Below are positions 4,651 through 38,197 of a DNA stretch of 38,376 nt, piece after piece. The notes under the pieces were generated by a model. The model ran no database searches and was not told the DNA's origin. It worked only from the letters and a program-made list of their open reading frames with translations. The position numbers and the translations under genes were made by a program. This stretch comes from Nitrospira sp. (GTDB lineage: Bacteria > Nitrospirota > Nitrospiria > Nitrospirales > Nitrospiraceae). Position 1 is the first letter of the stretch. Each line of letters opens with the position of its first letter. Location: assembly GCA_023248215.1 (NCBI GenBank), contig JAHFEW010000035.1, positions 1 through 38,376 of the forward strand, read 5' to 3'.

Positions 4651-5295
4651 TCAGCCGTAGCGATCGTTTTGCCAGGGGAGGGCGCTGTTGGAGTAGCCAC
4701 GCACCTCCCAGAAGCCTTTCTCGTCGCGATCTGAGAAGGTAATCTCCTTGATCCACTTGGCGCCTTTCCACGCGTAGCGCTTGGGGATAATCATGCGTAC
4801 CGGGCCGCCGTGCTCTTTGGTGAGCGGACGACCGTTCCATTTGTAGGTGAGAAGCACATCCCTGTCGTTACAGGCATCGAGAGACATGTTGGTCGTGTAA
4901 TCGTCATAGGATTTAAACAGCACAAACTTGGCGAGGGGACGCGGTTGGACGACAGCCATCAGTTGCTTGAAACTCACCCCTTCCCATTCGTTGTCGTAGC
5001 GGCTCCATGATGTCACGCAATGGAAATCGGAGACATCCTTGAACTGAGGTTGCCCAAGGAAGTCCGTCCAAGTCCAGGTTACGGGAGTCGTCACAGCGCC
5101 ACCAATGGTCAGTGTCCATTCCGAGAGCGGAATATCCGGTTTCTGGCCGAGGTCCAGTACCGGCCAGGTTTCCACGAGGTGTTGTCCGGGAGGAAGCCGG
5201 TCGTCTCCCTCGTAGAATACCTCGCGTTCTTCCCCACCGCGTCGAGCCTTCGCCCAGTTTTCCTTGGTCTTTATTAAACGATCATTTTGATCCAT
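4651..5295 (-). CDS. Sulfite oxidase-family molybdopterin oxidoreductase, cytoplasmic type
   Basis: This is a 214-residue protein with the oxidoreductase molybdopterin-binding fold shared with sulfite oxidase and MsrP/YedY. The invariant Mo-coordinating cysteine is seen in DFHCVTSWSR (Cys93), followed by LFKSYDDYTTNMSL, the substrate-side HGGPVRMIIPKRYAWKGAKW and EVRGYSN, all typical of COG2041. There is no Tat or Sec signal, so unlike MsrP it should stay in the cytoplasm; its physiological substrate is unknown. The start at 5295 (MDQNDRLIK) has GGGAGG upstream, whereas an earlier in-frame ATG does not. The dipeptide-epimerase-like gene follows 26 bases downstream. Confidence 0.87.
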   Translation of the reverse strand: MDQNDRLIKTKENWAKARRGGEEREVFYEGDDRLPPGQHLVETWPVLDLGQKPDIPLSEWTLTIGGAVTTPVTWTWTDFLGQPQFKDVSDFHCVTSWSRYDNEWEGVSFKQLMAVVQPRPLAKFVLFKSYDDYTTNMSLDACNDRDVLLTYKWNGRPLTKEHGGPVRMIIPKRYAWKGAKWIKEITFSDRDEKGFWEVRGYSNSALPWQNDRYG

Positions 5296-5551
5296 GCCCG
5301 GCCTCCCTGAAGACAGAGTAGGACAAGATGCCAGGATCTTACAAGGCCGATGCAATAGATGGGTGCGTCTTGCGACCTGGGGAAGGTCCCCTCAATAATA
5401 TGCTGAGGCCTATCTCTTGTGGGCTTGGAGCGGATTGAACAAAATCTTGGAGGGGTTGGGGGCGAGAATCGCTGATTTTAGAAATGGGATGAAGGCGGGG
5501 AAGCTACACCCTGGCACCCGCAGGCCCGTGGTTCTGTCGGCGCGGGTTAGA

Positions 5552-6197: not shown

Positions 6198-6935
6198 ATG
6201 ATACCGATCCAGGATGCAATGACCACTTCCATAGAATCGGCCACATCTCAGAAAAATGGCGGCTTCGGCAAACTGTTGTTGGGGCTGTCAGTCGGTCTCG
6301 GAGTCGCCGCTTTTTTCTATTTCGACCTCGGCCGCTACTTATCACTCGATGGGCTGAAGTCCAATCGGGATCATCTGCTCGCATTCACGGAAGCCAACTA
6401 TTCAGCTGCGGTGGCTATTTTTGTAGTCGCCTACTGCACGGTCGTCGGGCTGTCATTGCCTGGCGGGGCGATCATGACGCTGGCCGGAGGATTTCTATTC
6501 GGCAGTGTGCTGGGGACTCTGTATGTGAATGTTGGCGCGACCGTAGGGGCTACATTGGCGTTTCTGGTGGCTCGGTATCTTCTCAGGGATTGGGTCGAGC
6601 AGAAATTTGGGAATCGGCTGGGTCCCATTCAGGAAGGTTTTGCCAAGAACGCGTTCAGCTACCTCATGACCTTGCGCCTGATTCCGCTGTTCCCGTTCTT
6701 TCTGGTCAATATGGTGTCGGGCCTGACCCGAGTCAGAGTCGGAACCTACATGGCGGCAACATCTTTGGGGATCATTCCCGGTAGTTTCGTCTTCGCCTTT
6801 GCGGGCCGCCAACTCGGTACGATCAACTCGCTCAAGGAAATCGCTTCGCCCAATGTGTTGATGGCGTTTACGCTTTTGGGGCTCTTGGCGCTGGTGCCCA
6901 TCCTCTATAAGAAATTCGCCGGCAGGTCGGTCTGA
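6198..6935 (+). CDS. TVP38/TMEM64 family membrane protein (VTT domain)
   Basis: This 245-residue polytopic inner-membrane protein belongs to the VTT/SNARE-associated family related to DedA. After a polar N-terminus, the hydrophobic segments include about 25-43, 68-85 and 90-128, then a re-entrant-like region and two C-terminal helices ending near residue 240. The conserved VTT features are seen: GLSLPGGAIMTLAGGFLFG, GATLAFLVARYLLRDWV, RLIPLFPFFLVNMVSGLTRV and the GIIPGSFVFAFAGRQLG motif. VTT proteins are implicated in lipid scrambling and membrane homeostasis; the cargo here is unknown. GAGGAG lies close upstream of the ATG. A MerA-like flavoprotein and a DUF3047 protein follow closely on the same strand, suggesting an operon. 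Confidence 0.92.
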   Translation: MIPIQDAMTTSIESATSQKNGGFGKLLLGLSVGLGVAAFFYFDLGRYLSLDGLKSNRDHLLAFTEANYSAAVAIFVVAYCTVVGLSLPGGAIMTLAGGFLFGSVLGTLYVNVGATVGATLAFLVARYLLRDWVEQKFGNRLGPIQEGFAKNAFSYLMTLRLIPLFPFFLVNMVSGLTRVRVGTYMAATSLGIIPGSFVFAFAGRQLGTINSLKEIASPNVLMAFTLLGLLALVPILYKKFAGRSV

Positions 6936-6990
6936 ACAGCGCGCTGATCCCTAACGAAGATCGAAATTGACATATGAAAAGGCGGCCACA

Positions 6991-8577
6991 ATGCCTACTC
7001 AACACAGGAATCACCCGTCCCCGATGAATGCCGAGGGAGAGAGCTTGGTTTTGCCGAATGACGAGCACAACCAGAAGTTGGTTGAAAACGTGCATCCGTC
7101 CAATTGGGTGAATCCCGAGCCTAGCGGTCGCTACAACATCGTGGTGATCGGGGCAGGCACCGCAGGGTTGGTCACGGCGGTGATTGCGGCCGGCGTGGGT
7201 GCGAAGGTGGCCCTTATTGAACGTCATCTGATGGGAGGAGACTGCCTGAATGTGGGTTGCGTTCCGTCCAAGGGGCTCATTCGTGCGGCCAACGCGTGGG
7301 CAGAGATTCGGCATGCCGAGGAGTTCGGTCTGCACATCCCGCCGGGGGTGAAATATGACTTCGGTGCGGCGATGGCTCGCATGAGACAGCTGCGAGCCAG
7401 GATCAGCCATAACGATTCAGTCCATCGGTACAAATCCCTGGGTGTCGATGTCTATATCGGCCAAGCACAATTCGCCGGACTGGATACCGTACTGGTGGAG
7501 GGACCCGCTGGGGATCGGACGCTGACTTTCGTGAAGGCTGCGATCTGTACAGGCGCCAGGGCCGCTGCTCCCGCCACCCCAGGGCTAGAAGAAGCCGGTT
7601 ATCTCACGAACGAAACAGTGTTTTCTTTGACGGAACGGCCGGCTCGTATCGCTGTCATCGGTGCGGGACCGATCGGCTGCGAGTTGGCGCAGGCGTTCGC
7701 CCGCTTCGGCAGCCAGGTGTATTTGATTGAGGCGATGCACGGCATCATGCCCAACGAAGATCGGGATGCGGCCGAGATTGTCCAGCAGTCCATGGGCCGC
7801 GATGGTGTCACCTTGCTCTGCTGCGGGAAGGATTTGACGGTCACGAAAACGGCCGGTGGCAAGCGGCTCTCTGTTGATTCGCATGGGCAGCAATACGACG
7901 TGACCGTCGACGAAATTCTGGTGGGCGTCGGACGGACACCGAACGTCCAAGGGCTTAGCCTGGAGGCCGTCGGGGTTGAATATGACAAATCCGGCGTCAA
8001 AGTAAATCACCGGCTCCAAACGACCAACCCGCGCATCTATGCCGCAGGCGACATTTGTTCGCGATACAAATTCACACACGCTGCGGATGCGATGGCGCAG
8101 ATTGTCATTCAAAATGTGCTCTTTCCGCATCCCTTCGGACTGGGGTATGCCAGCATGGAATCCTTGATCATGCCCTGGTGTACATTCACCGAACCGGAAA
8201 TCGCCCATGTCGGTCTTTACGAGGCGGATGCGAGGAAGAAGGGGCTTGAGGTGGAGACCTACACCTACATGTTGAATGAAGTGGACCGGGCCATCCTTGA
8301 CGGTGAGGAGGAGGGATTTGCCCGCGTCCACATTCAGAAAGGGACGGACAAGATCCTCGGGGCCACCATTGTAGCCTCACACGCCGGTGACATGATCAAT
8401 GAGTTCTCCGTCTTGATGAAATCCGGCGCCGGGGTCAAAACAATCGCGGCTACCATCCATCCCTATCCCACCCAAGCCGAAGTCAACAAGAAGGTCGTCA
8501 ATCTCTGGCGCAAGGCGCACTTCACTGCACGGACCAAAACGATGCTGACCAGGCTCTTTGCCTGGTTGAGACGGTAA
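6991..8577 (+). CDS. Mercuric reductase-like FAD-dependent pyridine nucleotide-disulfide oxidoreductase
   Basis: This is a 528-residue class I flavoprotein disulfide reductase. It shows an FAD-binding GAGTAG (about 54-59), the redox-active pair in GGDCLNVGCVPSK (Cys85 and Cys90), the NAD(P)H-binding GAGPIGCELAQ, the second FAD contact IYAAGDIC and the C-terminal dimer-interface motif ATIHPYPTQAEV with the catalytic histidine. It differs from true MerA in lacking both the N-terminal heavy-metal-associated domain and the C-terminal vicinal cysteines, so mercury reduction is doubtful. Its disulfide or metal substrate is unknown. About 45 extra N-terminal residues precede the FAD domain. The ATG at 6991 has AGGCGG upstream; a TTG at 6967 is an alternative start. 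It lies between the VTT and DUF3047 genes. Confidence 0.88.
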   Translation: MPTQHRNHPSPMNAEGESLVLPNDEHNQKLVENVHPSNWVNPEPSGRYNIVVIGAGTAGLVTAVIAAGVGAKVALIERHLMGGDCLNVGCVPSKGLIRAANAWAEIRHAEEFGLHIPPGVKYDFGAAMARMRQLRARISHNDSVHRYKSLGVDVYIGQAQFAGLDTVLVEGPAGDRTLTFVKAAICTGARAAAPATPGLEEAGYLTNETVFSLTERPARIAVIGAGPIGCELAQAFARFGSQVYLIEAMHGIMPNEDRDAAEIVQQSMGRDGVTLLCCGKDLTVTKTAGGKRLSVDSHGQQYDVTVDEILVGVGRTPNVQGLSLEAVGVEYDKSGVKVNHRLQTTNPRIYAAGDICSRYKFTHAADAMAQIVIQNVLFPHPFGLGYASMESLIMPWCTFTEPEIAHVGLYEADARKKGLEVETYTYMLNEVDRAILDGEEEGFARVHIQKGTDKILGATIVASHAGDMINEFSVLMKSGAGVKTIAATIHPYPTQAEVNKKVVNLWRKAHFTARTKTMLTRLFAWLRR

Positions 8578-8585
8578 GGGGCTAT

Positions 8586-9323
8586 ATGTTGCGCACATGG
8601 CCTGTCCTGCTCACGCTGCTGTTGGGGACCGCGGCGGTCGGCCTGGCGCAAGGACCTGCGCTGCTGGAGGTCGGAAAGTTCTCGGCCGCGACCGAGGGCA
8701 GCACGTTGCCGGACGGGTGGAAGCCGCTGACCTTCAAAAAGGTCGAACGGCACACACAATATGAGGTGGTGAAAGACGGCTCAACGGTCGTAGTAAAAGC
8801 CATCAGCGAGGCGTCCGCCTCAGGCCTGACCAAAGAGGTGAAGATCGATCCGCATGAATACCCGATCGTGCGCTGGCGGTGGAAAGTGGAGAATTTGCTA
8901 CAGAAGAGCAACGTGAACCGCAAGGACGGCGACGACTATCCCGCACGGCTCTACATTACGTTCGCCTATGAACCGGACAAGGTGGGGTTGGGAAGAAAAC
9001 TCAAGTACAAAGCCGGACAGGCGCTTTTCGGAGAGATTCCCATCGGCGCCCTCAACTATATTTGGGATGGCAAGAGTCCGATCGGCGCGATCGTGGATAA
9101 TGCGTTCACTGATTTTGCCAAGATGATTGTGGTGCAGAGCGGAGCGCAGCGAATCGGCTCCTGGATTGAAGAAGAGCGCAATGTCTATGAAGACTATAAG
9201 CTGGCCTTCGGAGAGGAACCGCCTGCGATCAATGGTGTCGCGATTATGAGCGACACGGACAACACGAAGGAGCGTGCCGTTGCCTATTACGGCGATATTG
9301 TCTTTGCTCAGGCGTCGAGGTGA
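8586..9323 (+). CDS. DUF3047 family exported protein
   Basis: This 245-residue protein has an N-terminal signal peptide (LLTLLLGTAAVGLAQG) and the typical DUF3047 pattern: LPDGWKPLTFKKV, an SASGL motif, PIVRWRWKVENLL, DGDDYPARLYITFAYEP, LNYIWDGK, IVVQSGAQRIGSWIEEERNVYEDY and the near-terminal GVAIMSDTDNTKE...YYGDIVF. The domain is predicted beta-rich and carbohydrate-binding-like, and its biochemical role is not established. It should be periplasmic. AAGGGG precedes the ATG. It begins 8 bases after the flavoprotein stop, so the two are probably co-translated from one mRNA. Confidence 0.88.
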   Translation: MLRTWPVLLTLLLGTAAVGLAQGPALLEVGKFSAATEGSTLPDGWKPLTFKKVERHTQYEVVKDGSTVVVKAISEASASGLTKEVKIDPHEYPIVRWRWKVENLLQKSNVNRKDGDDYPARLYITFAYEPDKVGLGRKLKYKAGQALFGEIPIGALNYIWDGKSPIGAIVDNAFTDFAKMIVVQSGAQRIGSWIEEERNVYEDYKLAFGEEPPAINGVAIMSDTDNTKERAVAYYGDIVFAQASR

Positions 9324-9356
9324 GGGAAAGGCTGGAAGGCTGGAGATGCAGAAGGC

Positions 9357-9389
9357 GGAGGAGCCGACCTATGCAGGGCCGGCCCCTCC
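9357..9389. terminator. GC-rich hairpin between convergent genes
   Basis: Bases 9357-9369 pair with 9377-9389 (11 of 13 positions, 7-base loop). The hairpin sits just after the DUF3047 stop and before the convergent end of the small exported protein gene. It is a likely bidirectional terminator, though there is no clear T tract. Confidence 0.5.
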
Positions 9390-9430
9390 AAGACACCAAC
9401 GAACTGATGTGGGTTCGCAGAGTCAGCGGG

Positions 9431-9838
9431 TTATTGAATTGAGTTTGCGAAGCCACCGTGGGTAATTTCAGCCCGAATAGTGTCGCCCACCTTCTTGTTG
9501 CCTCGCAGGTGTTTGGTGCCCTGCCCGACGTGCACCTTCATTTGGTTACCGTCAAAGTCTTCGACCACGTAGGTCTCCCCCTGGATATTCTTGATGGTGC
9601 CGCCGACTGTTTTCCAGGCCACTCCGGGTTTGGAGTCATGCTGGCCGGGTTTTGGCGCAGGAGCCTGTTCAGGAACAGAGCCCAACAGGGAGGAAGCTGC
9701 CGCTGCCGATGTAGTGGTGGCATGTTTCGACTGCTTGCCCGTCTTTTCTTTCGCCAATGCAGGGGCGACGATCAAGGCGACGGCAGCGAAGGTGGCCGCT
9801 ACCATTGTGAGCATTGAGGGCTGGGCTTGCACGTTCAT
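9431..9838 (-). CDS. Small exported protein with OB-like C-terminal domain
   Basis: This 135-residue protein starts at 9838, where AAGGAGG lies 6 bases before the ATG. It has a signal peptide (MLTMVAATFAAVALIVAPALA, cleavage near AKEK), a Ser/Ala/Lys/Pro-rich linker and a C-terminal domain of about 60 residues (VGGTIKNIQGETYVVEDFDGNQMKVHV...KVGDTIRAEI) with the strand pattern of a small beta-barrel, as in periplasmic OB-fold proteins. No enzymatic residues are obvious. It is the only minus-strand gene inside the plus-strand run from 6.2 to 13.2 kb, and its function is unknown. Confidence 0.8.
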   Translation of the reverse strand: MNVQAQPSMLTMVAATFAAVALIVAPALAKEKTGKQSKHATTTSAAAASSLLGSVPEQAPAPKPGQHDSKPGVAWKTVGGTIKNIQGETYVVEDFDGNQMKVHVGQGTKHLRGNKKVGDTIRAEITHGGFANSIQ

Positions 9839-10037
9839 AACGATCCTCCTTGCAATGAATACGGCTGAGTGTCGGTGAACCATTCAGCAAGCCGTATGCC
9901 TGGAAAAGAGGGGTGCAAAGTGAGGGATTGCACGGATTTGTGCCGATTGCGTTGCGTTGTGCTGAACAGGAGCGCCGGGAGTGGGGAAAAATGACAAGTC
10001 CCGTTCAAATATGGTCACCGGTACCACAGGATTCACG

Positions 10038-11024
10038 ATGACGCCGAAACATCTGCTCACCGTAATCTCCGACCGAGCCAAACCTCATGTTAGGGCGGCC
10101 GGTATTGGCCACCTTCCAGGTCACCCTTCGGTGCAACTCAGCCTGCGGCTATTGCGATCTGCCCTAAACCAAGGACGGTATGAACTCAGCCGGGAGGAGA
10201 TTCGAGCGGTATTTGAACGCCTCTATGCCGAAGGCATTCGGTTTGTCCTTCTCCAGGGTGGAAAGCCGCTCCTGCGTCCCGACCTGCTCGACGTGGTTGA
10301 GGATCTGACTTCCCTCGGGTTGCACGTGAGTGTGATCACCAATGGAACGAGGCTGACGAAGGACCTCGTCGCGAGGTTTGCCGTGCTGCGCCTTCCCTTG
10401 TCGATCAGCCTGGACACGCTTGATCACGCTCGATATCGTCAGATCCGAGGGGCAGATCAATTGCCGCAGGTCTTGGCCGAACTCGATTTGCTCGATGACT
10501 ATCCCGGCCCGAAATTTCTCACCTGCATCGTGAGCGAGGTGAATCGTGATGAGGTGCCTGGGGTTGTGCGATTTGCCGGACCGCGAGGTTTTATTCCGGT
10601 GGTGGGAGCCTATCACTGGAAGGTGGGTCTCTATGGAAAAGAGGATCCGGGATTGGTGTACGACCGCTCGGCGGCCGTTCATGTGTTCGAACGGCTGCTG
10701 CATGAGGGCCTGATCCCTGCCGGGTACTTCCGGCAATTTGCCAACGATAACGTGACCTGGTTGCGAGGCCAACGACTTGAACCCTGCGATGCGGGACGGT
10801 ACAGTGTCGCGATTGATGCGTCAGGGAATGTGGCGCCTTGTTTGGCCTTCCCATCCGTGGGGAATCTCCTTGAATCATCCTATCGGGAGATCCTCAGTCG
10901 CTTCGACCGAGCTGAGATTCAAACCTGCTCCGATTATTCTACGTGCAACCGGTTCGACGGGGGGATGGTAGGGACGATTCTGCGGCATCCGATGACGGCC
11001 TGGCGAACACCGGTGTCGTTCTGA
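10038..11024 (+). pseudogene. Radical SAM/SPASM-like protein, Fe-S motif out of frame
   Basis: Most of the reading frame is a radical SAM protein: EGIRFVLLQGG, LHVSVITNGTRLT, LSISLDTLDHARYRQIRG, and a C-terminal region with EPCDAG, NVAPCLAFPSVGN and TCSDYSTCNR cysteines that look SPASM-like. In this frame, however, residues about 16-42 are nonsense. The expected cluster motif is in the +1 frame: ATG at 10087, then VLATFQVTLRCNSACGYCDLP, with cysteine codons at 10132, 10144 and 10153, ending at TAA 10165-10167. Joining the parts (CDLP to LNQGRYELSREE) needs one extra C at 10162-10164 and a compensating change near 10083-10090. The GGEP motif also reads GGKP (AAG at 10263). As sequenced, no product would carry the full CxxxCxxC radical SAM core. 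It may be a real pseudogene or a pair of sequence errors. The start at 10038 has AGGA upstream. Confidence 0.75.
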
Positions 11025-11040
11025 TTAGGAAAAAGCGACG

Positions 11041-11808
11041 ATGCGTCAGACTCTGATCGGCCTTCTCATCCTTCTGGCCACTGGTTGCACGACCGTTCCA
11101 ACCTCATTCACTCCGTCGAACCCTATTCCTCCCAGCCAGTTCTCCCACGAGGAATGGCAGGACTTGTTGCGCACGTATGTTCGAGACGGCGCGGTTGACT
11201 ATCCGGCCATCCAGAGACAGGGGCGCCTCACGTCTTATCTGGCTCTGCTGGATCGCGTGGATCCGAACCAATTGTCTGGAGATAACCGGCTGGCCTTGTG
11301 GATCAACGCCTACAATGCCTTTGCGGTGAAGGGCATCCTGGACCACTATTCGCCGGGGACTCTGTTCGGCCGGTATCGGTACTTCATCGCGCGTGAGTAC
11401 CAGGTTGGTGGACAGACCGTGAATCTTTACAATTTGGAACGCGAGATTCTTATCGCCCAGTTCCACGAACCACGGATGCACTTCGCGATTGTCTGTGCCT
11501 CGGCATCCTGTCCGAAACTCCAGTCGTGGGCGTACGAGGGCCAGCAACTTGATCAACAACTGAATCGGGTCACGAGTGAGTTCGTCAATGATCCTTCACG
11601 CAATCGGTTTGACCGGTCGAAAAAAGTGGCCTCTCTGTCGATGATTTTCAAATGGTTTGCGAAGGATTTCGAGGCCCGCTCCGGATCAGTCCTGAATTTC
11701 GTGAGGGAGTACGTGCAGGACACATCGTTGAAACAGGACCTGTTCGCAGCCGACTATACCGTGGAATTTCTCGACTACGATTGGAGCCTGAATGGACCGC
11801 GACCTTAG
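11041..11808 (+). CDS. DUF547 family lipoprotein
   Basis: This is a 255-residue protein with a lipoprotein signal (LIGLLILLATGC, Cys16) and the DUF547 domain: WQDLLRTYVRDGAVDYPAI, LALWINAYNAFAVKGIL, VNLYNLEREIL, MHFAIVCASASCPKL and the distal LSMIFKWFAKDF. DUF547 has a conserved histidine/cysteine region (HFAIVCASASCP) compatible with a thiol-type hydrolase or transferase active site, but no reaction is established. It is anchored on the periplasmic side. It starts 16 bases after the radical SAM gene and is followed 17 bases later by the ferritin-like gene, so the genes very likely form one operon. Confidence 0.9.
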   Translation: MRQTLIGLLILLATGCTTVPTSFTPSNPIPPSQFSHEEWQDLLRTYVRDGAVDYPAIQRQGRLTSYLALLDRVDPNQLSGDNRLALWINAYNAFAVKGILDHYSPGTLFGRYRYFIAREYQVGGQTVNLYNLEREILIAQFHEPRMHFAIVCASASCPKLQSWAYEGQQLDQQLNRVTSEFVNDPSRNRFDRSKKVASLSMIFKWFAKDFEARSGSVLNFVREYVQDTSLKQDLFAADYTVEFLDYDWSLNGPRP

Positions 11809-11825
11809 CTGTACAGGAGCATGGC

Positions 11826-12461
11826 ATGCTGGTATTGCCTGGTGAACGGGTGCCGATCGCCCGGCTGCTGGCCTTTCTCGAACATGGCGAACGGATGGCG
11901 AATGCCTGTGCCCACAGCCAGGCGGCACTGGCTCCGGACTCCAAGACACAGCGGTTTTTAACGACCCAGGCGCGGCAGGAAGCGATGCATGCCGCGATCT
12001 TTCGCGGAGCGATCGGGTGGCTCGCTCCGCGCCACCTGGGTGATTCTCCGCTCCTGCCGGCCCTCGAAGAGTATCGCCGACTCCTTACTGAGGCGCTTGA
12101 ACGAGGAGATTGGCTGGAAAGTATCTTGGCCGAGCAGGTGATTCTCGAAGGGTTGGGGGAAGCGATTCTGACTCGTATTGAGACCGGCCTGGAAAAGCGG
12201 CATGCGCCGTTCCGCAGGCTGCGCCTGATGCTCCTGCATCAAGAGGAGGCCCATCATGAGTTCGGGCGGCGCCTGTTGGAGCGAGCGATGGCAGATGGGA
12301 CCACAGGCCTGGAGGGGCTCCGCCGGCGCACGCAAGACTACCTGGCACTGACTGAGTCGATGGTCCTGCCGCTCTGCGATCTCTTCGAGACGATCGATGA
12401 GGATGCCTCTGCCTGGGCCGCGGATGTCCGCACCTTTCTTCCCAGTTGGTTGACGGCATGA
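11826..12461 (+). CDS. Ferritin-like di-iron protein of unknown function
   Basis: This 211-residue, almost entirely helical protein starts at 11826 (MLVLPGERVPIARL), where AGGAG lies 6 bases upstream; the frame is open further back only through overlap with the DUF547 gene. It carries two ExxH motifs typical of ferritin-like di-iron sites, EAMH (52-55) and EAHH (141-144), plus Glu22 and Glu103/Glu108 on the intervening helices. That set fits a four-helix di-iron carboxylate centre as in oxygenases, oxidases and aldehyde-deformylating-type proteins. The substrate is unknown; proximity to the radical SAM and glycosyltransferase genes suggests a tailoring oxidation, which is inference. Its stop overlaps the glycosyltransferase start (ATGA). 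Confidence 0.75.
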   Translation: MLVLPGERVPIARLLAFLEHGERMANACAHSQAALAPDSKTQRFLTTQARQEAMHAAIFRGAIGWLAPRHLGDSPLLPALEEYRRLLTEALERGDWLESILAEQVILEGLGEAILTRIETGLEKRHAPFRRLRLMLLHQEEAHHEFGRRLLERAMADGTTGLEGLRRRTQDYLALTESMVLPLCDLFETIDEDASAWAADVRTFLPSWLTA

Positions 12462-13162
12462 TCTCCGTCGTCATTCCCGCTTATAACGAAGAACGCGCGC
12501 TCCCCACCACCTTGCGACAGCTGCTTGAGCAAGCCGGTGACTATGAAGTCATCGTCGTCGATGGAGAGAGCAGCGACGGGACGTGTGAGGTTGTCCGGCA
12601 ACTCCCGCTCGATCGCCAGTGTGCAATCCCCAGTCGACTCACGTTAATCAGCGCACGGAAAGGACGGGCCTCGCAGATGAATGCGGGCGCCAAGGTGGCT
12701 CGGGGCGAGTGGCTGCTGTTCCTCCATGCTGATACGGTCCTGCCGGTCCAGGCGTTGAGCCGGCTCAACGCCTTGGAGTCGGATCTCGGGATCCTGGCCG
12801 GCGGGTTTCGTCACCAATTTTCTGGATCAGACTGGCGGCTCCGGATGATCTCGTCGCTCGACAATTTCCGCTGTATCAGGAGCCGTATTATTTACGGCGA
12901 TCAGGCGCTGTTCGTACGGAAGTCTTTGTTTGAGCGGCTCGGCGGATTTCCCGATCAGCCCATCCTGGAAGACGTGGCATTTTGTGAAAAGCTGCTGCGG
13001 GTGACGACGCCGGTGCTCCTGTCTCCGCCGGTTGTGACGGATGCCCGCAAGTTCCTTAGGATGGGTGTCTGGCGGAGTTTCGTTCGCGTGCTGCTCATCA
13101 TCCTGCATGTGGAATTCAAGTTCCCCTACCTTCCACGGGGATTTTTTCAAGATATTCGCTGA
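12458..13162 (+). CDS. Family 2 glycosyltransferase, TIGR04283-like (rSAM/selenodomain-associated transferase 2)
   Basis: This is a 234-residue GT-A transferase. It shows the opening ISVVIPAYNEE, VIVVDGESSDGT, ISARKGRASQMNAGA, the metal-binding LLFLHADTVLP (HAD in place of DxD), AGGFRHQF, YGDQALFVRKSLFERLGGFPDQPILEDVAFCEKL, and a basic, hydrophobic C-terminus. The RxxQMNxGA and FLHADT motifs point to the TIGR04283 group, which recurs near radical SAM genes and has been linked to arsenosugar-type pathways. Neither an ArsM nor an ArsS homologue is seen here. The ATG overlaps the stop of the ferritin-like gene by four bases, so translation is coupled. The sugar donor and acceptor are unknown. 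Confidence 0.85.
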   Translation: MISVVIPAYNEERALPTTLRQLLEQAGDYEVIVVDGESSDGTCEVVRQLPLDRQCAIPSRLTLISARKGRASQMNAGAKVARGEWLLFLHADTVLPVQALSRLNALESDLGILAGGFRHQFSGSDWRLRMISSLDNFRCIRSRIIYGDQALFVRKSLFERLGGFPDQPILEDVAFCEKLLRVTTPVLLSPPVVTDARKFLRMGVWRSFVRVLLIILHVEFKFPYLPRGFFQDIR

Positions 13163-13887: not shown

Positions 13888-16554
13888 ATGGATCTGATCA
13901 CGACGCATCTGAACGCGGACTTTGACGGGTTGGCCTCGATGGTCGCCGCCCGGAAGCTCTATCCCGGAGCTGTACTCGTATTTTCTGGCGGCGCGCAGGA
14001 GGCCGTGCGGAATTTTCTTGCTACACATGAGGTGACCATCAGCCGCCTCAAGGACGTGGTATTGGAACAGGTACGACGGTTGATTCTGGTGGATGTCCAA
14101 GAGCCCGAGCGTCTTGGCACATTGAAGGTGCTCAGTTCACGCGCGGACGTGGAAGTACATATCTTCGATCACCACGGAGCCGGTGAGATTGACGGGGAGC
14201 AGCGTCCATCCCCATGGCCTCTGGTCACGCAGCGGCACGTGCAAGCGGTCGGCGCCACGACCACGCTTCTCGTCGAGCGCCTGAAAGAGCAGCACATGGC
14301 GATCACGTCCTCTGAAGCGACGATTCTGGCGCTTGGTCTGTACGAAGAAACGGGATCGCTTGCCTACCCGTCGACGACCCCGCGGGATCTGGACGCCGCA
14401 GCCTTTGTGCTGCGTGCGGGCGCCGATTTGAACCTCGTCGCTGAGACCCTGCGACATCCGCTGGACCCCGATCTGATCGCCTTGCTGAACGACCTGCTGC
14501 AGTCAGGCGAGATCTACTATCTGGAGGGCCGAAAAATTCTCGTCGCGGCAAGCACCTATGATCGCTACAGGGGTGACCTTGCTGAAGCGGTTCAGCGACT
14601 GGCGGAATTGCAGGGTCTCGACGCTGTCATCGCCGCCATTTCGCTGGATGAAAAGGTTGAAATTATCGGGCGGAGCCGGCGGCCTGAGATTGATGTGGCG
14701 TGGATTGCGCGCGAATTCGGCGGAGGCGGGCATGCCGTGGCGGCAGCCGCCAGTGTGAAGGGCCGGACGTTGGTCGAAGTTCAGGAGCAACTGAAAATTC
14801 TCTTGACGCAGCGATATCGCCCCGCCTTATTGGCTCACGATGTCATGACGAAGCCGGTGAAATCGATTGCCGCGGAGGCGACAGTCTCTGAAGCGGAGCG
14901 GGCCATGACGACGTATGGAGTTAACGTGTTGCCCGTTCTCGATCAGAAGGAGCGGTATGTCGGAATCATTTCACGGGAGATCGTCCAGAAAGCTCTGTTT
15001 CATCGATTAGGGGATCACCGGATCGAGGACCTCGCCAGGAGCGATCAGTACAGCGCACAGCCGGACACGCCCTTTCATGACATCGAAGCGCGGATGATCG
15101 AACTGAATCAGCGTTTCGTGCCGGTGCTGTCCGGCGAAAAAACGGTGGGGGTCATCACGCGGACCGATTTGCTCCGCAGCCTCCACGACGATGTGCTCGC
15201 GGCTGCTCGTGCCAAGCCAAAATCGTTGATGGGGCTCGAATCCATGGGCGGCGTGCGGCGGCGGGATGTCGGCGGACTGTTGCGCGATCGGATGCCTCAT
15301 ACCGTGCTGCACCTGTTGCGGACGGCAGGCGAATTGGCGGAGCGACTCGGCTATTCAGCCTACGTCGTCGGAGGGTTTGTACGGGACCTGCTGCTCAACA
15401 TCGACAACCTCGACGTTGACCTGGTGGTAGAAGGCGATGGGATTGCGTTCGCGCGCGCCTTGGCCAAGGACAAGGAAGGCCGCGTCAAGGTTCACGAGCG
15501 TTTTGGAACAGCGGTGGTGCTCTTTCCAGATGGCTTCAAGCTGGACGTGGCGACGGCCCGCACGGAATATTACGAGTACCCGACCGCCCTGCCGACGGTC
15601 GAGCAGAGCTCCATCAAGAAGGATCTCTACCGCCGTGATTTTACCATTAACACGTTGGCGGTCCGGCTCAATCCCCGTCCCTTCGGCCAACTCATCGACT
15701 TCTACGGAGGCCAGCGCGACCTCAAGGAACGTATCATCCGGGTGCTCCATAGTTTGAGCTTTGTGGAGGATCCGACCAGGGTCTTTCGCGCGATTCGTTT
15801 CGAACTGCGGTTCGGCTTTCGTTTGAGCAAGGAGACGCTGGCGTTGATCAAGGGCGCGGTGAAGATGGAGTTGTTCCATCGGCTCTCCGGCCAACGGTTG
15901 CTGGATGAGCTACGGCTCTTGTTTTCCGAGCGGGCGCCACGGAATGCCGTCCGCCGACTGGCGGACCTCGATCTCTTGCAATTCATCCATCCGAAGCTCG
16001 AATGGTCCAGCCGCCTGGACCGGCGTTTGATCGAGTTGGAAGAGGCGTTGGACTGGTACCGGTTCTCCTGTCTCGATCGGACGATCAACCGATGGCTGGT
16101 CTATGCGATGGCGCTCGTCGAGGTCTTGCCGGATCAATCGGTCGACGACGTTCTCACACGATTCCCTTTTACGGAAGAGGAACGAACCGCGGTCAACGCG
16201 GCCCGCTTTCTCACCCATCAGGTCTGCCGGCAACTGAGCCTGCGTATGCCCCTTCGACCGTCGGAAACGGTTCGGTTGCTGAGCGGCCTCTCGGACGAGA
16301 CGCTTGTGTTTTTGTTGGCGAAGAACAAATCGGAATCGGCGAAGCGACAGCTCTCGATGTTTCTCTCCACCTACCGGGATGTAAAACCCTCTTTGACCGG
16401 CAAGGACCTGAAGGCGTTGGGACTGAAACCAGGGCCGCGGTATCGCGCGATCTTGAGTCGATTGATGGAGGCGCGTCTGGACGGAGAGGTCAATGACGAG
16501 AGAGAGGAGCGAGAACTGGTCAAGCGGTTGGTCGAGGAGGACCGTGCGGGCTAG
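13888..16554 (+). CDS. DHH-CBS-poly(A) polymerase/tRNA nucleotidyltransferase fusion protein
   Basis: This 888-residue fusion has these domains in order. A DHH phosphoesterase domain (HLNADFDGLAS at 7-17, IFDHHGAGEID around 92-102) is followed by a DHHA1-type domain with FGGGGHAVAAAA (277-288). Two CBS repeats (about 315-440) come next. The class II nucleotidyltransferase head has GGFVRD (495-500), the metal-binding DVDLVVEG (509-516) and RRDFTINTLAV (582-592). The RNA-binding neck begins FVEDPTRVFRAIRFELRFGF. The polymerase part adds A or CCA to tRNA 3' ends; the DHH part resembles nanoRNase/RecJ-type exonucleases, so the protein may couple removal and addition at RNA ends, with CBS repeats sensing adenylates. 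Similar A-adding or CC-adding fusions occur in Aquifex, Geobacter and relatives. Which nucleotides it adds cannot be told here. Confidence 0.92.
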   Translation: MDLITTHLNADFDGLASMVAARKLYPGAVLVFSGGAQEAVRNFLATHEVTISRLKDVVLEQVRRLILVDVQEPERLGTLKVLSSRADVEVHIFDHHGAGEIDGEQRPSPWPLVTQRHVQAVGATTTLLVERLKEQHMAITSSEATILALGLYEETGSLAYPSTTPRDLDAAAFVLRAGADLNLVAETLRHPLDPDLIALLNDLLQSGEIYYLEGRKILVAASTYDRYRGDLAEAVQRLAELQGLDAVIAAISLDEKVEIIGRSRRPEIDVAWIAREFGGGGHAVAAAASVKGRTLVEVQEQLKILLTQRYRPALLAHDVMTKPVKSIAAEATVSEAERAMTTYGVNVLPVLDQKERYVGIISREIVQKALFHRLGDHRIEDLARSDQYSAQPDTPFHDIEARMIELNQRFVPVLSGEKTVGVITRTDLLRSLHDDVLAAARAKPKSLMGLESMGGVRRRDVGGLLRDRMPHTVLHLLRTAGELAERLGYSAYVVGGFVRDLLLNIDNLDVDLVVEGDGIAFARALAKDKEGRVKVHERFGTAVVLFPDGFKLDVATARTEYYEYPTALPTVEQSSIKKDLYRRDFTINTLAVRLNPRPFGQLIDFYGGQRDLKERIIRVLHSLSFVEDPTRVFRAIRFELRFGFRLSKETLALIKGAVKMELFHRLSGQRLLDELRLLFSERAPRNAVRRLADLDLLQFIHPKLEWSSRLDRRLIELEEALDWYRFSCLDRTINRWLVYAMALVEVLPDQSVDDVLTRFPFTEEERTAVNAARFLTHQVCRQLSLRMPLRPSETVRLLSGLSDETLVFLLAKNKSESAKRQLSMFLSTYRDVKPSLTGKDLKALGLKPGPRYRAILSRLMEARLDGEVNDEREERELVKRLVEEDRAG

Positions 16555-33671: not shown

Positions 33672-33841
33672 TGGCTTGACGAAGTCTTCCGACATCTTCT
33701 CTGGCGAACAGGTTTCTGGAAAGCAGGCCGCGAGGCGGTTTGTGACGAACGCCGTTTCCGTGACCGCCGATGACGATGTGAGTTGAGATTCGGCGAGGCG
33801 TGCCTCGGGGGAGGGCGCACGTTCCTTGTGTTCTTCTGGTG

Positions 33842-33850
33842 TGCTACGAT
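33842..33850 (+). promoter_or_regulatory. Extended -10 promoter, leaderless arrangement
   Basis: TGC plus TACGAT (33845-33850) ends 9 bases before the ATG at 33860 (6 before an in-frame GTG). No Shine-Dalgarno sequence is present. Confidence 0.4.
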
Positions 33851-33859
33851 GACCGTGTG

Positions 33860-36800
33860 ATGTCCGCCCTGCCGTTCCATCCCATCATCGTCGAATGGTT
33901 TGCGACTCGATTCGCCTGTGCGACCGATGTCCAGATGCAGGCATGGCCTGCCATTCAATCTGGTCGTGATGTGCTGATCGCCGCGCCGACGGGTTCGGGC
34001 AAGACCTTAGCCGCCTTTCTCTCCTGCATCGACCGACTGTTTCAGCAGGCCGTGAACTGTGATCTTCGGGATGAGACCCAGGTGCTGTATGTTTCGCCCC
34101 TGAAAGCGCTCAGCAACGACGTTCAAAAAAACCTGCAACAGCCGCTCACCGAGATCGGCCAGGCTGCCCTGACGGCCGGCATGTTGTTGCCCGAGCTGCG
34201 GGTCGTCGTGCGTACCGGCGACACGCCCATGATTGAGCGGCAGCAGATGCTCCGGCGTCCGCCCCATATTCTCATCACGACACCCGAGTCGCTCTTTATC
34301 CTCCTGACGGCGGAAAAAAGTCGCGCGATGTTGAAGACGGTGCGCACGGTCGTCGTGGATGAAATTCATGCCGTCGCCCCGAACAAGCGCGGGGCGCATC
34401 TGGCGTTGTCGCTGGAACGAGTGGCGGCCCTCACCGGCTGCGCAGTGCAACGAATCGGGCTGTCCGCAACGCAGCGGCCCATTGAGACCGTGGCGGAGTT
34501 TCTGGTGGGACAGCGCGCATTGCCTCAAGTGATCGATGTCGGTCATCGCCGCGACATGGATCTCGCCGTCGAGGTGCCGAAGGACGAACTCGGAGCCGTC
34601 GCCACGAATGCCATCTGGAGCGATGTGTACGACCGGCTCGCAGCGCTGGTCGAGGCCCACCGATCCACCCTTGTTTTTGTGAATACGCGACGGTTGGCAG
34701 AGCGGGTCTCGCATTATTTGGAGGAGCGGCTGCGTCACTTGGGGGAAGGGGTGGTAGCGGCGCACCACGGCAGCCTGTCGCGGCAGATCCGTCTGTCGGC
34801 GGAAGATCGTTTGAAAAAGGGGTCCGTGCGCGTGGTCGTCGCCACGGCATCACTGGAACTCGGCATCGACGTCGGGACAGTCGATCTCGCCTGCCAGATC
34901 GGGTCGCCCCGCTCCATTGCGACGTGCCTCCAGCGCCTGGGCCGGGCCGGCCATTGGGTTCACGCCATCCCCAAAGGCAGACTCTTCGCCACCACGCGAG
35001 ATGAATTGATCGAATGCGCCGCATTGATCCGGTCGATCAGAGCCGGAATGCTGGACCGCATAGAGGTGCCATCCGCACCGCTGGATGTGTTGTCTCAGCA
35101 GATCGTGGCCGCGGCCGCCACTCAACCATGGGATGAGGCGGAGTTGTATGACCTGTGTCGCAGGGCCATGCCGTATCGTGGCCTGACTCGCTCGACGTTC
35201 GACGCCGTGCTGAAGATGCTCGCGGAGGGGTTCGTCACCAGCCGAGGTCGGGGGCGAGCCTATCTCCACCATGATCGCATCAACCATCACATCCGAGGCC
35301 GTCGAGGGGCCCGATTGGCGGCCATCACCTCCGGCGGAGCCATTCCAGACACGGCGAACTATGTGGTGATTGCGGAGCCAGACGGGACGGTTGTGGGGTC
35401 GGTGGATGAGGATTTTGCCGTCGAGAGTCTGGCGGGAGACATTATTCTGTTAGGCAATACCTCCTGGCGGATCAGGGGTGTCGAAACCGGCAAGATGCGA
35501 GTCGAGGATGCGCAGGGGGCTCCGCCGACCATTCCGTTTTGGCGCGGGGAAGGACCTTCCCGCACGGCGGATCTGTCCGCGGAAGTCGCTCGCCTCAAGG
35601 CTGATATCGATCGCCGACTCGATGCCGATCCATCATCCCTGACGCCCTACGCTCCGCCGGTGCAGTGGCTGAGACAGGAATGTGCTCTCGACCAACGCGG
35701 CGCGCAACAGGCCGTTGAATATGTGCTGGCGGGCAAGGCGGTCTTGGGAACCGTCCCGACTCAGGAAACGATCGTGGCGGAGCGGTTCTTCGATGAAAGC
35801 GGCGGGATGCAACTCGTCATCCATGCGCCATTCGGCGGGCGGGTGAACCGGGCCTGGGGGCTGGCCTTGCGGAAGCGGTTTTGTGTGACCTTCGATTTTG
35901 AGTTGCAGGCGGCGGCGACGGACGAGGGCATTGTGTTGTCGTTGGGTGAACGGCACAGCTTCCCACTGGATACGGTCTTCGCCTTCTTGAACGCCAAGAC
36001 CCTGCGAGAGGTGCTGACACAAGCGGTGCTGCAGGCGCCGATGTTCATGACCCGCTGGCGCTGGAACGCCACGCGAGCCTTGGCCTTGTTACGGTTTGTC
36101 AGCGGCAAACGAGTGCCTCCGCAGATTCAGCGCATGCGGGCCGAAGACTTGCTGGCTGCCGTCTTTCCGGACGCGCTCGCCTGCCAGGACAATTTTCAGG
36201 GAGAGCGGACGGAACGCCAGATTCCAGACCATCCCCTGGCGCAGGAGACGATTCGGGATTGTCTGACCGAGGCGATGGATCTCGACGGGCTCATCACCGT
36301 GCTGGAAAAGATTGAAGGCGGCGCCATCACCTGTGTGGCCGTCGATACGCCGTTGCCCTCCGCCTTCTGTCATGAAATTTTGAACGCCAATCCCTATGCG
36401 TTTCTCGACGATGCGCCGCTTGAAGAACGCCGGGCGCGGGCCGTTGAAATGCGTCGCACCTTGCCGCCTGAATTGGCGGGCCAGATGGGCGCGTTGGATC
36501 AATCGGCGATCGACCAAGTTATCGAAGAATCTTGGCCGGTGGTGCGCGATGCGGAGGAATTGCACGATGCACTCCTGTCGTTGGTGTGGGTGCCCTGCGA
36601 GCGCATGCCCGATTGGGAGCTCTGGGTCCCCCCATTGGCAGCCGCGGGACGGTTGGTGACGGTCTGGCGTGGAGAAACGCGATTGGGCTGGGCGGCCGCG
36701 GAGTATCGTCACTCCGTTCTGACGCTGTTTCCCAATGACCGAATCGATCCGGAACATGTCCACGTGGAGCCGGTCGAATCCCCGGAACGTGAAGCACTGT

Positions 36801-38197
36801 TGGACCGGGTGGTCTTAGGCTGGATGGAAAGTATCGGGCCCACGACTGCCATGGAACTGTCGAAGACCCTGCATCTTTCCGAGCAGGAGGTTCAAGGGAC
36901 TGTTCTCAGACTCGAAGCCCAAGGGCATGTTCTGCGCGGCCGCTTCCGGCCGTCACCTCCGATTCCTAATTCACAATTCATAATTCAACATTCCGACGCT
37001 CCCGCGCCGGTTGAATGGTGTCACCGGCGGTTGCTAGCCAGGATTCACCGGCTGACGATCGGGCGTCTGCGCAAGGAGATCGAGCCGGTCTCCGCCGCGG
37101 AGTTCATACGGTTCCTCTTCCAGTGGCAACATGCGTCGCCGGGAGCACGTCTGCATGGCGAGGTCGGGCTCCTTGAAGTGGCCAAGCAACTGGGGGGATT
37201 TGAAGCGGCCGCATCGGCCTGGGAATCCCAGATCTTGCGGGTCCGACTGGCCAAGTATGAACCGGAGTGGCTCGATCGATTGTGTTTGAGCGGGGCCGTC
37301 ATGTGGGGCCGTCTGACGCCGCATCCCCGCTTGATGCAGGAGCTGAGCCCTCTGCCGGGGCGGCGAGTCGTGCCGACCAGGGTTGCGCCGGTGAGTGTGT
37401 TTGCTCGCGAGGATGCCGTGGCCTTGCTGGCTGCCGCCGGCGAGGGCATGCAGCACATGGATATCAATGCCCGCCTCGGCGCATCGGCACAGGCGGTCCG
37501 CCGCTGTCTACAGGAGCGGGGGGCGAGTTTTTTCAGCGAGGTGCTGCACGTGACTCGTCTGCTGGCGTCCGAGGTCGAGGATGGGTTGTGGGAATTGGTG
37601 GCGGCCGGCCTGGTGACGGCGGATGGGTTCGACAACCTGCGCGCGCTCATCGATCCCCGGCGGCGGCGCGCCGAGGGGCGTGGTCGGAGTTGCCGCCCAC
37701 GCCATGTCGGCGGTCGCTGGTCGTTGCTACGGACAGGCAGAGAGTCCGCCCCTGTGCCGGGAGCGACGCAGACGGAAAGTCTCGCCCGCCGTCTGCTGCA
37801 GCGGTATGGCGTGGTGTTCCGCGACCTGTTGGCGCGCGAGTCGGTGGTGTCGTCCTGGCGCGATCTGTTGGTCTGTTACCGGCGCCTTGAATTGACCGGG
37901 GAGATCAGGGGCGGCCGGTTTGTGTCTGGGTTTACGGGCGAGCAGTTTGCGTTACCCGAGGCGCTGGAATCCCTGCGGGCGCTCAAGAAACGGCCGGGGA
38001 CTCAGCAGGAGATCAAGATTTCCGCCGCCGATCCGTTGAATCTCGCCGGGGTGATTTTGCCGGGGCCTCGCATCGCCGCCGTGCCGTCGAACTTCGTGGT
38101 CTTTCGAGACGGCATGGTGATTCGAACGGTGACGGGCCGTGAGACGACCGATCGTCAAGAGCCGTCGGTCATCGAAGTAGGCCAGGTTCGAGGATAG
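33860..38197 (+). CDS. lhr: Large Lhr-type DEAD/H-box helicase
   Basis: This is a 1445-residue superfamily 2 helicase. Helicase motifs appear in order: Walker A AAPTGSGKTLAAF (41-53), VLYVSPLKALSND, TTPESLFILL, DEIH (167-170), GLSATQRP (about 200-207), VFVNTRRLAERV, HHGSLSRQIR and SLELGIDVGTVDLACQIGSPRS with QRLGRAGH. A winged-helix and Lhr-specific core follow. The remaining C-terminal half matches the length of the long Lhr proteins of Escherichia coli and mycobacteria (about 1500 residues), i.e. core plus CTD. Lhr is a 3'-5' ATP-dependent RNA:DNA helicase with a DNA-repair role. A 7-bp tandem repeat within the gene encodes an atypical NSQFIIQHS segment. The start is ATG 33860, with no ribosome binding site. 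Confidence 0.94.
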   Translation: MSALPFHPIIVEWFATRFACATDVQMQAWPAIQSGRDVLIAAPTGSGKTLAAFLSCIDRLFQQAVNCDLRDETQVLYVSPLKALSNDVQKNLQQPLTEIGQAALTAGMLLPELRVVVRTGDTPMIERQQMLRRPPHILITTPESLFILLTAEKSRAMLKTVRTVVVDEIHAVAPNKRGAHLALSLERVAALTGCAVQRIGLSATQRPIETVAEFLVGQRALPQVIDVGHRRDMDLAVEVPKDELGAVATNAIWSDVYDRLAALVEAHRSTLVFVNTRRLAERVSHYLEERLRHLGEGVVAAHHGSLSRQIRLSAEDRLKKGSVRVVVATASLELGIDVGTVDLACQIGSPRSIATCLQRLGRAGHWVHAIPKGRLFATTRDELIECAALIRSIRAGMLDRIEVPSAPLDVLSQQIVAAAATQPWDEAELYDLCRRAMPYRGLTRSTFDAVLKMLAEGFVTSRGRGRAYLHHDRINHHIRGRRGARLAAITSGGAIPDTANYVVIAEPDGTVVGSVDEDFAVESLAGDIILLGNTSWRIRGVETGKMRVEDAQGAPPTIPFWRGEGPSRTADLSAEVARLKADIDRRLDADPSSLTPYAPPVQWLRQECALDQRGAQQAVEYVLAGKAVLGTVPTQETIVAERFFDESGGMQLVIHAPFGGRVNRAWGLALRKRFCVTFDFELQAAATDEGIVLSLGERHSFPLDTVFAFLNAKTLREVLTQAVLQAPMFMTRWRWNATRALALLRFVSGKRVPPQIQRMRAEDLLAAVFPDALACQDNFQGERTERQIPDHPLAQETIRDCLTEAMDLDGLITVLEKIEGGAITCVAVDTPLPSAFCHEILNANPYAFLDDAPLEERRARAVEMRRTLPPELAGQMGALDQSAIDQVIEESWPVVRDAEELHDALLSLVWVPCERMPDWELWVPPLAAAGRLVTVWRGETRLGWAAAEYRHSVLTLFPNDRIDPEHVHVEPVESPEREALLDRVVLGWMESIGPTTAMELSKTLHLSEQEVQGTVLRLEAQGHVLRGRFRPSPPIPNSQFIIQHSDAPAPVEWCHRRLLARIHRLTIGRLRKEIEPVSAAEFIRFLFQWQHASPGARLHGEVGLLEVAKQLGGFEAAASAWESQILRVRLAKYEPEWLDRLCLSGAVMWGRLTPHPRLMQELSPLPGRRVVPTRVAPVSVFAREDAVALLAAAGEGMQHMDINARLGASAQAVRRCLQERGASFFSEVLHVTRLLASEVEDGLWELVAAGLVTADGFDNLRALIDPRRRRAEGRGRSCRPRHVGGRWSLLRTGRESAPVPGATQTESLARRLLQRYGVVFRDLLARESVVSSWRDLLVCYRRLELTGEIRGGRFVSGFTGEQFALPEALESLRALKKRPGTQQEIKISAADPLNLAGVILPGPRIAAVPSNFVVFRDGMVIRTVTGRETTDRQEPSVIEVGQVRG
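36967..36987 (+). repeat. AT-rich tandem 7-mer repeat inside lhr
   Basis: Three 7-bp units, TAATTCA, CAATTCA and TAATTCA, followed by a decayed unit (ACATTCC), lie in the lhr frame. They stand out as AT-rich in a GC-rich gene, encode NSQFIIQH, and fall in a probable linker after a winged-helix-like segment (LSEQEVQGTVLRLEAQGHVLRGRF). Confidence 0.7.

Follow-up and report, generated by a model that had tools for sequence, protein, structure and literature searches.

The accessory gene cassette analysed here has no assigned role, yet it is widespread across the order of Nitrospira, whose members are central nitrifiers. The question raised by the present locus is whether seven neighbouring plus-strand genes act as one system, and what such a system could make. 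The window, that is, the whole stretch of 38,376 nucleotides that was analysed, corresponds to contig C37 in a draft assembly of 4.69 Mb that comprises 199 contigs. In a preliminary description, the seven genes were assigned to seven families and regarded as one block, possibly concerned with a modified lipid or a metalloid compound. Domain-model searches and inspection of the window found all seven families present, and for the ferritin-like gene the nearest named relatives come from Nitrospira assemblies. Gene order was compared in 60 stretches from relatives. It can be observed that the order is kept across these 60 Nitrospira loci, usually running VTT, MerA-like, DUF3047, minus-strand gene, radical SAM, DUF547, ferritin-like, glycosyltransferase and polyA-polymerase-like gene. 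The dN/dS was low (0.07-0.17) in all genes compared. Operon-like spacings inside each half of the block are likewise kept in relatives; however, a minus-strand gene at 9431-9883, overlooked in the preliminary description, separates the DUF3047 and radical SAM genes. A single uninterrupted operon of all seven genes is thereby excluded, and the block is predicted to be at least two transcription units. The intervening gene encodes a small exported-looking protein of 150 aa, is kept in most same-family loci, and matched no Pfam or NCBIfam family. The stretch consists of two neighbouring, separately inherited Nitrospirales modules, namely module A, comprising the VTT, MerA-like and DUF3047 genes, and module B, comprising the radical SAM, DUF547, ferritin-like and glycosyltransferase genes.

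Module A begins with a VTT/DedA (TVP38-type) membrane protein at 6198-6935 on the plus strand, recognised by PF09335 (93 bits) and by synteny. It is followed on the same strand by an FAD pyridine nucleotide-disulfide oxidoreductase at 6967-8577 (PRK06370.1-3 subfamily, 782 bits against a cut-off of 620) and by a DUF3047 protein with an N-terminal signal-like sequence at 8586-9323 (PF11249, 260 bits). The flavoprotein had been described as MerA-like. Its placement among disulfide oxidoreductases is upheld, but the MerA model scored 377 bits, under its cut-off of 454, and identity as a mercuric reductase was rejected. The window flavoprotein shares with MerA the enzyme superfamily and the redox CxxxxC motif (here CLNVGC), whereas it has neither the N-terminal HMA domain nor the C-terminal Cys pair, ending instead in LTRLFAWLRR. 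Among DedA proteins of COG0398, the commonest fusion partner is the pyridine nucleotide-disulfide oxidoreductase domain (PMC10127716). Module A fits this known pairing by analogy of domain type, with adjacent VTT and oxidoreductase genes encoding the same domain types; unlike the fusions, the genes here are separate and are accompanied by a conserved third gene, DUF3047. One long minus-strand ORF elsewhere in the window's own genome (L005, 1282-3324) was considered as a VTT-oxidoreductase fusion and rejected, since its translation looks like a fusion of phospholipase D-type and VTT domains. Divergent to the VTT gene of the window lies a gene for a short molybdopterin protein of the sulfite oxidase family (4651-5355, minus strand; PF00174, 132 bits), which many relatives have retained; in several genera, further proteins of this family are encoded close to module B, and others lie close to module A paralogues.

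In module B, the DUF547 lipoprotein is encoded at 11041-11808 on the plus strand (PF04784, 92 bits). It carries a lipobox-like LLATGC with an invariant Cys16, and His147, Cys152 and Cys157 are also invariant in alignment A2. Its predicted model has a pLDDT of 92, and searches by sequence, Foldseek and VIA gave no clear relative of solved structure, the best VIA Z of 4.8 meaning little. The literature on TIGR04283, DUF547 and DUF3047 in bacteria yielded nothing useful. The last gene, at 12458-13162 on the plus strand, encodes a TIGR04283-type family 2 glycosyltransferase (218 bits against a cut-off of 182), for which ATG 12458 is the most likely start, giving a 4-base overlap with the ferritin-like stop. 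The ferritin-like and DUF547 genes do not overlap, since the start of the former is placed at 11826 and not at 11652: in relatives from other genera the match generally sets in only at residue 44-59 of the longer ORF, whose upstream part carries stops in many relatives. TIGR04283 is here a family name only, and the acceptor could be non-lipid.

The ferritin-like protein itself (11826-12461, plus strand) matched no Pfam or NCBIfam family, and its predicted model has the fold of aldehyde-deformylating oxygenase (ADO) and R2lox. E22, E52, H55, E108, E140 and H143 are invariant in a 31-row alignment and fit the pattern E-ExxH-E-ExxH, which makes them candidate di-iron ligands. The model (pLDDT 86; best Foldseek E 1e-4) is closest to ADO over the whole chain, with Z 22.7 and 2.5 Å over 201 of 211 residues, the protein being ADO-like in size also; R2lox follows, again over the whole chain, with Z about 20. 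Weak sequence matches were to R2, phenol hydroxylase and COQ7. Identity to ADO chains is only 15-21%, however, and the neighbours differ, being a glycosyltransferase and a DUF547 lipoprotein. Membership of the ADO family was rejected, since no TIGR04059 match was found in the genome at E 1e-3 while a Synechococcus control scored above the cut-off; the acyl-ACP reductase partner (TIGR04058) is absent from the genome as well. A shared fold does not imply shared chemistry here, the substrates of ADO relatives being quite unlike those of R2lox relatives. It is nevertheless reasonable to regard the protein as a putative oxygen-using di-iron oxidase with a hydrophobic pocket.

The radical SAM/SPASM gene that opens module B is damaged in the window, with its ORF still open (10038-11024, plus strand; body 10170-11024). 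Both domains score above their Pfam cut-offs (PF04055, 53 bits; PF13186, 26 bits), and the original radical SAM call is therefore correct as to family by descent, but the ORF called from 9981 does not encode CxxxCxxC in frame. In the compared relatives, CNSxCxYCxLPLN reads in one frame. Relative to all four aligned relatives, the window has an 11-bp deletion with its junction at 10078-10079 (plus strand); downstream, the radical SAM motif CNSACGYC at 10132-10155 (plus strand) is out of frame with the ORF, and alignment with relatives places a frame-restoring 1-bp deletion in a C run at 10162-10164 (plus strand). Together the two deletions remove 12 bases; the reading frame is therefore kept open, but the stretch encoding the three cluster cysteines is scrambled. 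Moreover, the SAM-binding GGEP has become GGKP, through a GAG to AAG change, in the window genome only among 21 aligned. The genome has no second close copy of the gene, its other two matches being weak. The dN/dS of the gene is 0.13-0.17 against near relatives and 0.11 between two relatives with intact genes, values that fit recent damage. Naming a substrate from known radical SAM models was attempted and rejected, the nearest (MoaA, 72 bits, and others) being far below their NCBIfam cut-offs.

On this basis, a combined explanation is put forward tentatively, with a chance that we place somewhat short of even, in which module A serves a redox or metal-stress role and module B builds or modifies an envelope glycolipid. 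In module A, a membrane lipid transporter (VTT) would be coupled to a flavin reductase in the cytoplasm, with DUF3047 as an exported partner; module A might also act alone, without a lipid role. In module B, a lipid-like substrate would be oxidised with oxygen by the di-iron enzyme, in keeping with its fold relatives, and would receive a sugar from the glycosyltransferase; outside the membrane, the resulting product would be acted on by the DUF547 lipoprotein. An optional extra modification may come from the radical SAM enzyme, which is wrecked in the window genome. Gene content and order, the separability of the modules, the optional nature of the radical SAM gene, its damage and the fold match are observations; all substrates and products of both modules are inferred, and the modified lipid first proposed is a reasonable suggestion rather than a result. 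Judged from fold and family, module B is best read as a putative envelope glycolipid tailoring set. A more specific version, which appears somewhat unlikely, has an ADO/R2lox-fold di-iron oxidase of Nitrospirales acting on an envelope lipid in one pathway with a DUF547 lipoprotein and a TIGR04283-type glycosyltransferase, the radical SAM step being optional and repeatedly lost. Such a pathway, if true, would be undescribed.

The distribution of the radical SAM gene was followed in a family set of 147 genomes, a radical SAM match being counted at E below 1e-50. The ferritin-like gene is present in 72 genomes and the radical SAM gene in 56, the latter including one gene split over two contigs and the damaged gene of the window. 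The radical SAM gene never occurs without the ferritin-like gene (56 of 56), and it is absent from 16 of the 72 ferritin-like genomes. Some of these 16 are fragmentary assemblies, but two (G012 and G077) consist of one contig each. Within module B, the dispensable gene is thus that for radical SAM. On a tree of concatenated module A proteins, a minimum of 15 state changes is required for intact radical SAM and 8 for the triad of remaining genes, counts that give no direction. Radical SAM fragments remain in four loci (L048, L085, L092 and L093), and these relics, together with the presence of the gene in another family, point to repeated loss. The pattern supplies natural experiments, with near relatives carrying four genes, three or none. 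One alternative, although unlikely, is that module B survives in this genome only as a decaying relic, with the damage to its radical SAM gene as the start of whole-cassette loss, as in the relatives that keep fragments. It draws on the double indel and GGKP, on those relics and on the repeated state changes, as well as on a near relative (L038, 5195-5716, minus strand) whose ferritin-like gene is broken by an internal deletion and a frameshift while its radical SAM gene is intact. However, the other three module B genes of the window are intact, with dN/dS of 0.10-0.16, and triad-only genomes persist in several genera, including the two single-contig assemblies.

A further alternative joins A and B in one pathway, in which the lipid-linked product of module B is moved by the VTT protein and kept reduced by the flavoprotein. 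It had been stated at the outset that halves never occurring together would not be one system. They do occur together, in fixed order, in most cassette-bearing Nitrospira, and this conserved neighbourhood argues for a common pathway, yet the halves can also be parted both ways. Module A stands without module B in L051-L055 and L086: the flanking genes are the same there, but the four genes between them are cleanly missing. Conversely, L047 has a complete module B with the MerA-like and DUF3047 genes missing, and L059 and L079 have the B genes with no module A nearby. This separability in both directions is the ground for recognising two modules. The cassette genes also occur in a second family (f2) of the order, the radical SAM gene being present in some members only, and module A lies ~5-7 kb upstream of B in some f2 genomes, an arrangement that again favours one pathway. 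Against it, A and B are parted by the minus-strand gene, with a gap of roughly 4-9 kb in several genera, and module A has paralogous copies away from B. A single pathway is considered decidedly unlikely.

The paralogues of module A bear on its proposed metal-stress role. The divergent DUF3047 copies have 54-60% identity, and among the matches listed, 9 of 30 lie within 25 kb of ArsS, several of them as full trios of VTT, MerA-like and DUF3047; the chance expectation is estimated at well under one for copies placed at random in a 4-Mb genome. In another island (L127), a module A paralogue accompanies a true MerA (570 bits), a MerR-like regulator and a MerT-like gene. An arsenic island (L126) holds a SoxC-type sulfite dehydrogenase gene (565 bits, cut-off 420) and a cytochrome c gene at 14309-16115, both adjoining a paralogous VTT, MerA-like and DUF3047 trio. 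Copies of module A are thus found alongside genes for metal resistance and for sulfur oxidation, and the metalloid idea thereby gains some support for module A, from paralogues often found in arsenic or mercury islands.

For module B, the arsenic genes point the other way. The statement that the locus contains no ArsM or ArsS holds, and both occur elsewhere in the same genome. An ArsM-ArsS pair (449 bits) lies on contig C183, with ArsS at C183:38586, and the contig also has arsC, acr3, a second ArsM and arsR, the names arsC, acr3 and arsR resting on reading of the translations. The only TIGR04282 copy is at C6:29290, next to a second TIGR04283 (241 bits), while no TIGR04282 partner is present at the window locus. 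Compared with the arsenosugar set of ArsM, ArsS, TIGR04282 and TIGR04283, the locus shares one TIGR04283-type glycosyltransferase and one radical SAM gene; it differs in having no ArsM, ArsS or TIGR04282, and in a radical SAM gene that is of another family and broken. Arsenosugar synthesis was thus rejected as the reading of module B, given the ArsM-ArsS and TIGR04282-TIGR04283 pairs elsewhere in the genome. The proposed metalloid pathway accordingly fails for module B and keeps some link to the module A paralogues. A variant arsenosugar or metalloid-compound pathway, in which the radical SAM enzyme replaces ArsS and the glycosyltransferase works like canonical TIGR04283, is highly improbable. 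The TIGR04283 score above cut-off and the module A paralogues near ArsS are consistent with it, as is one locus (L070) with ArsM and ArsS inside. Nevertheless, the genome already has the dedicated genes elsewhere, the search of neighbourhoods for arsenic genes found them beside module B in that single locus of 60, the radical SAM protein is far below the cut-offs of NCBIfam radical SAM models among the matches listed, and its gene is dispensable, missing from many relatives and broken in the window. Because ArsS is present in 132 of 147 genomes, its occurrence together with the cassette is uninformative. It should be noted that the TIGR04283 label alone does not denote an arsenosugar pathway, since arsenic genes lie elsewhere in the same genome. 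In L070, ArsM, ArsS and a phosphate-permease-like gene occupy 8499-11953, between modules A and B.

An error of assembly or sequencing as the source of the radical SAM damage is hardly credible: the assembly is a draft of 199 contigs and the 1-bp change sits in a C run, but an 11-bp deletion and the replacement of GAG by AAG within the GGE motif are untypical of read errors, and the two indels jointly restore the frame.

Several minor observations were made beside the cassette. One contig labelled Verrucomicrobiota (L103) carries an 85% identical ferritin-like gene and is probably a misbinned Nitrospira contig. Immediately after the cassette, 13888-16554 encodes an 888-aa protein with DHH/DHHA1, CBS and polyA-polymerase domains. 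Further along the window, a 1465-aa large helicase-related (Lhr-type) protein is encoded at 33800-38197.
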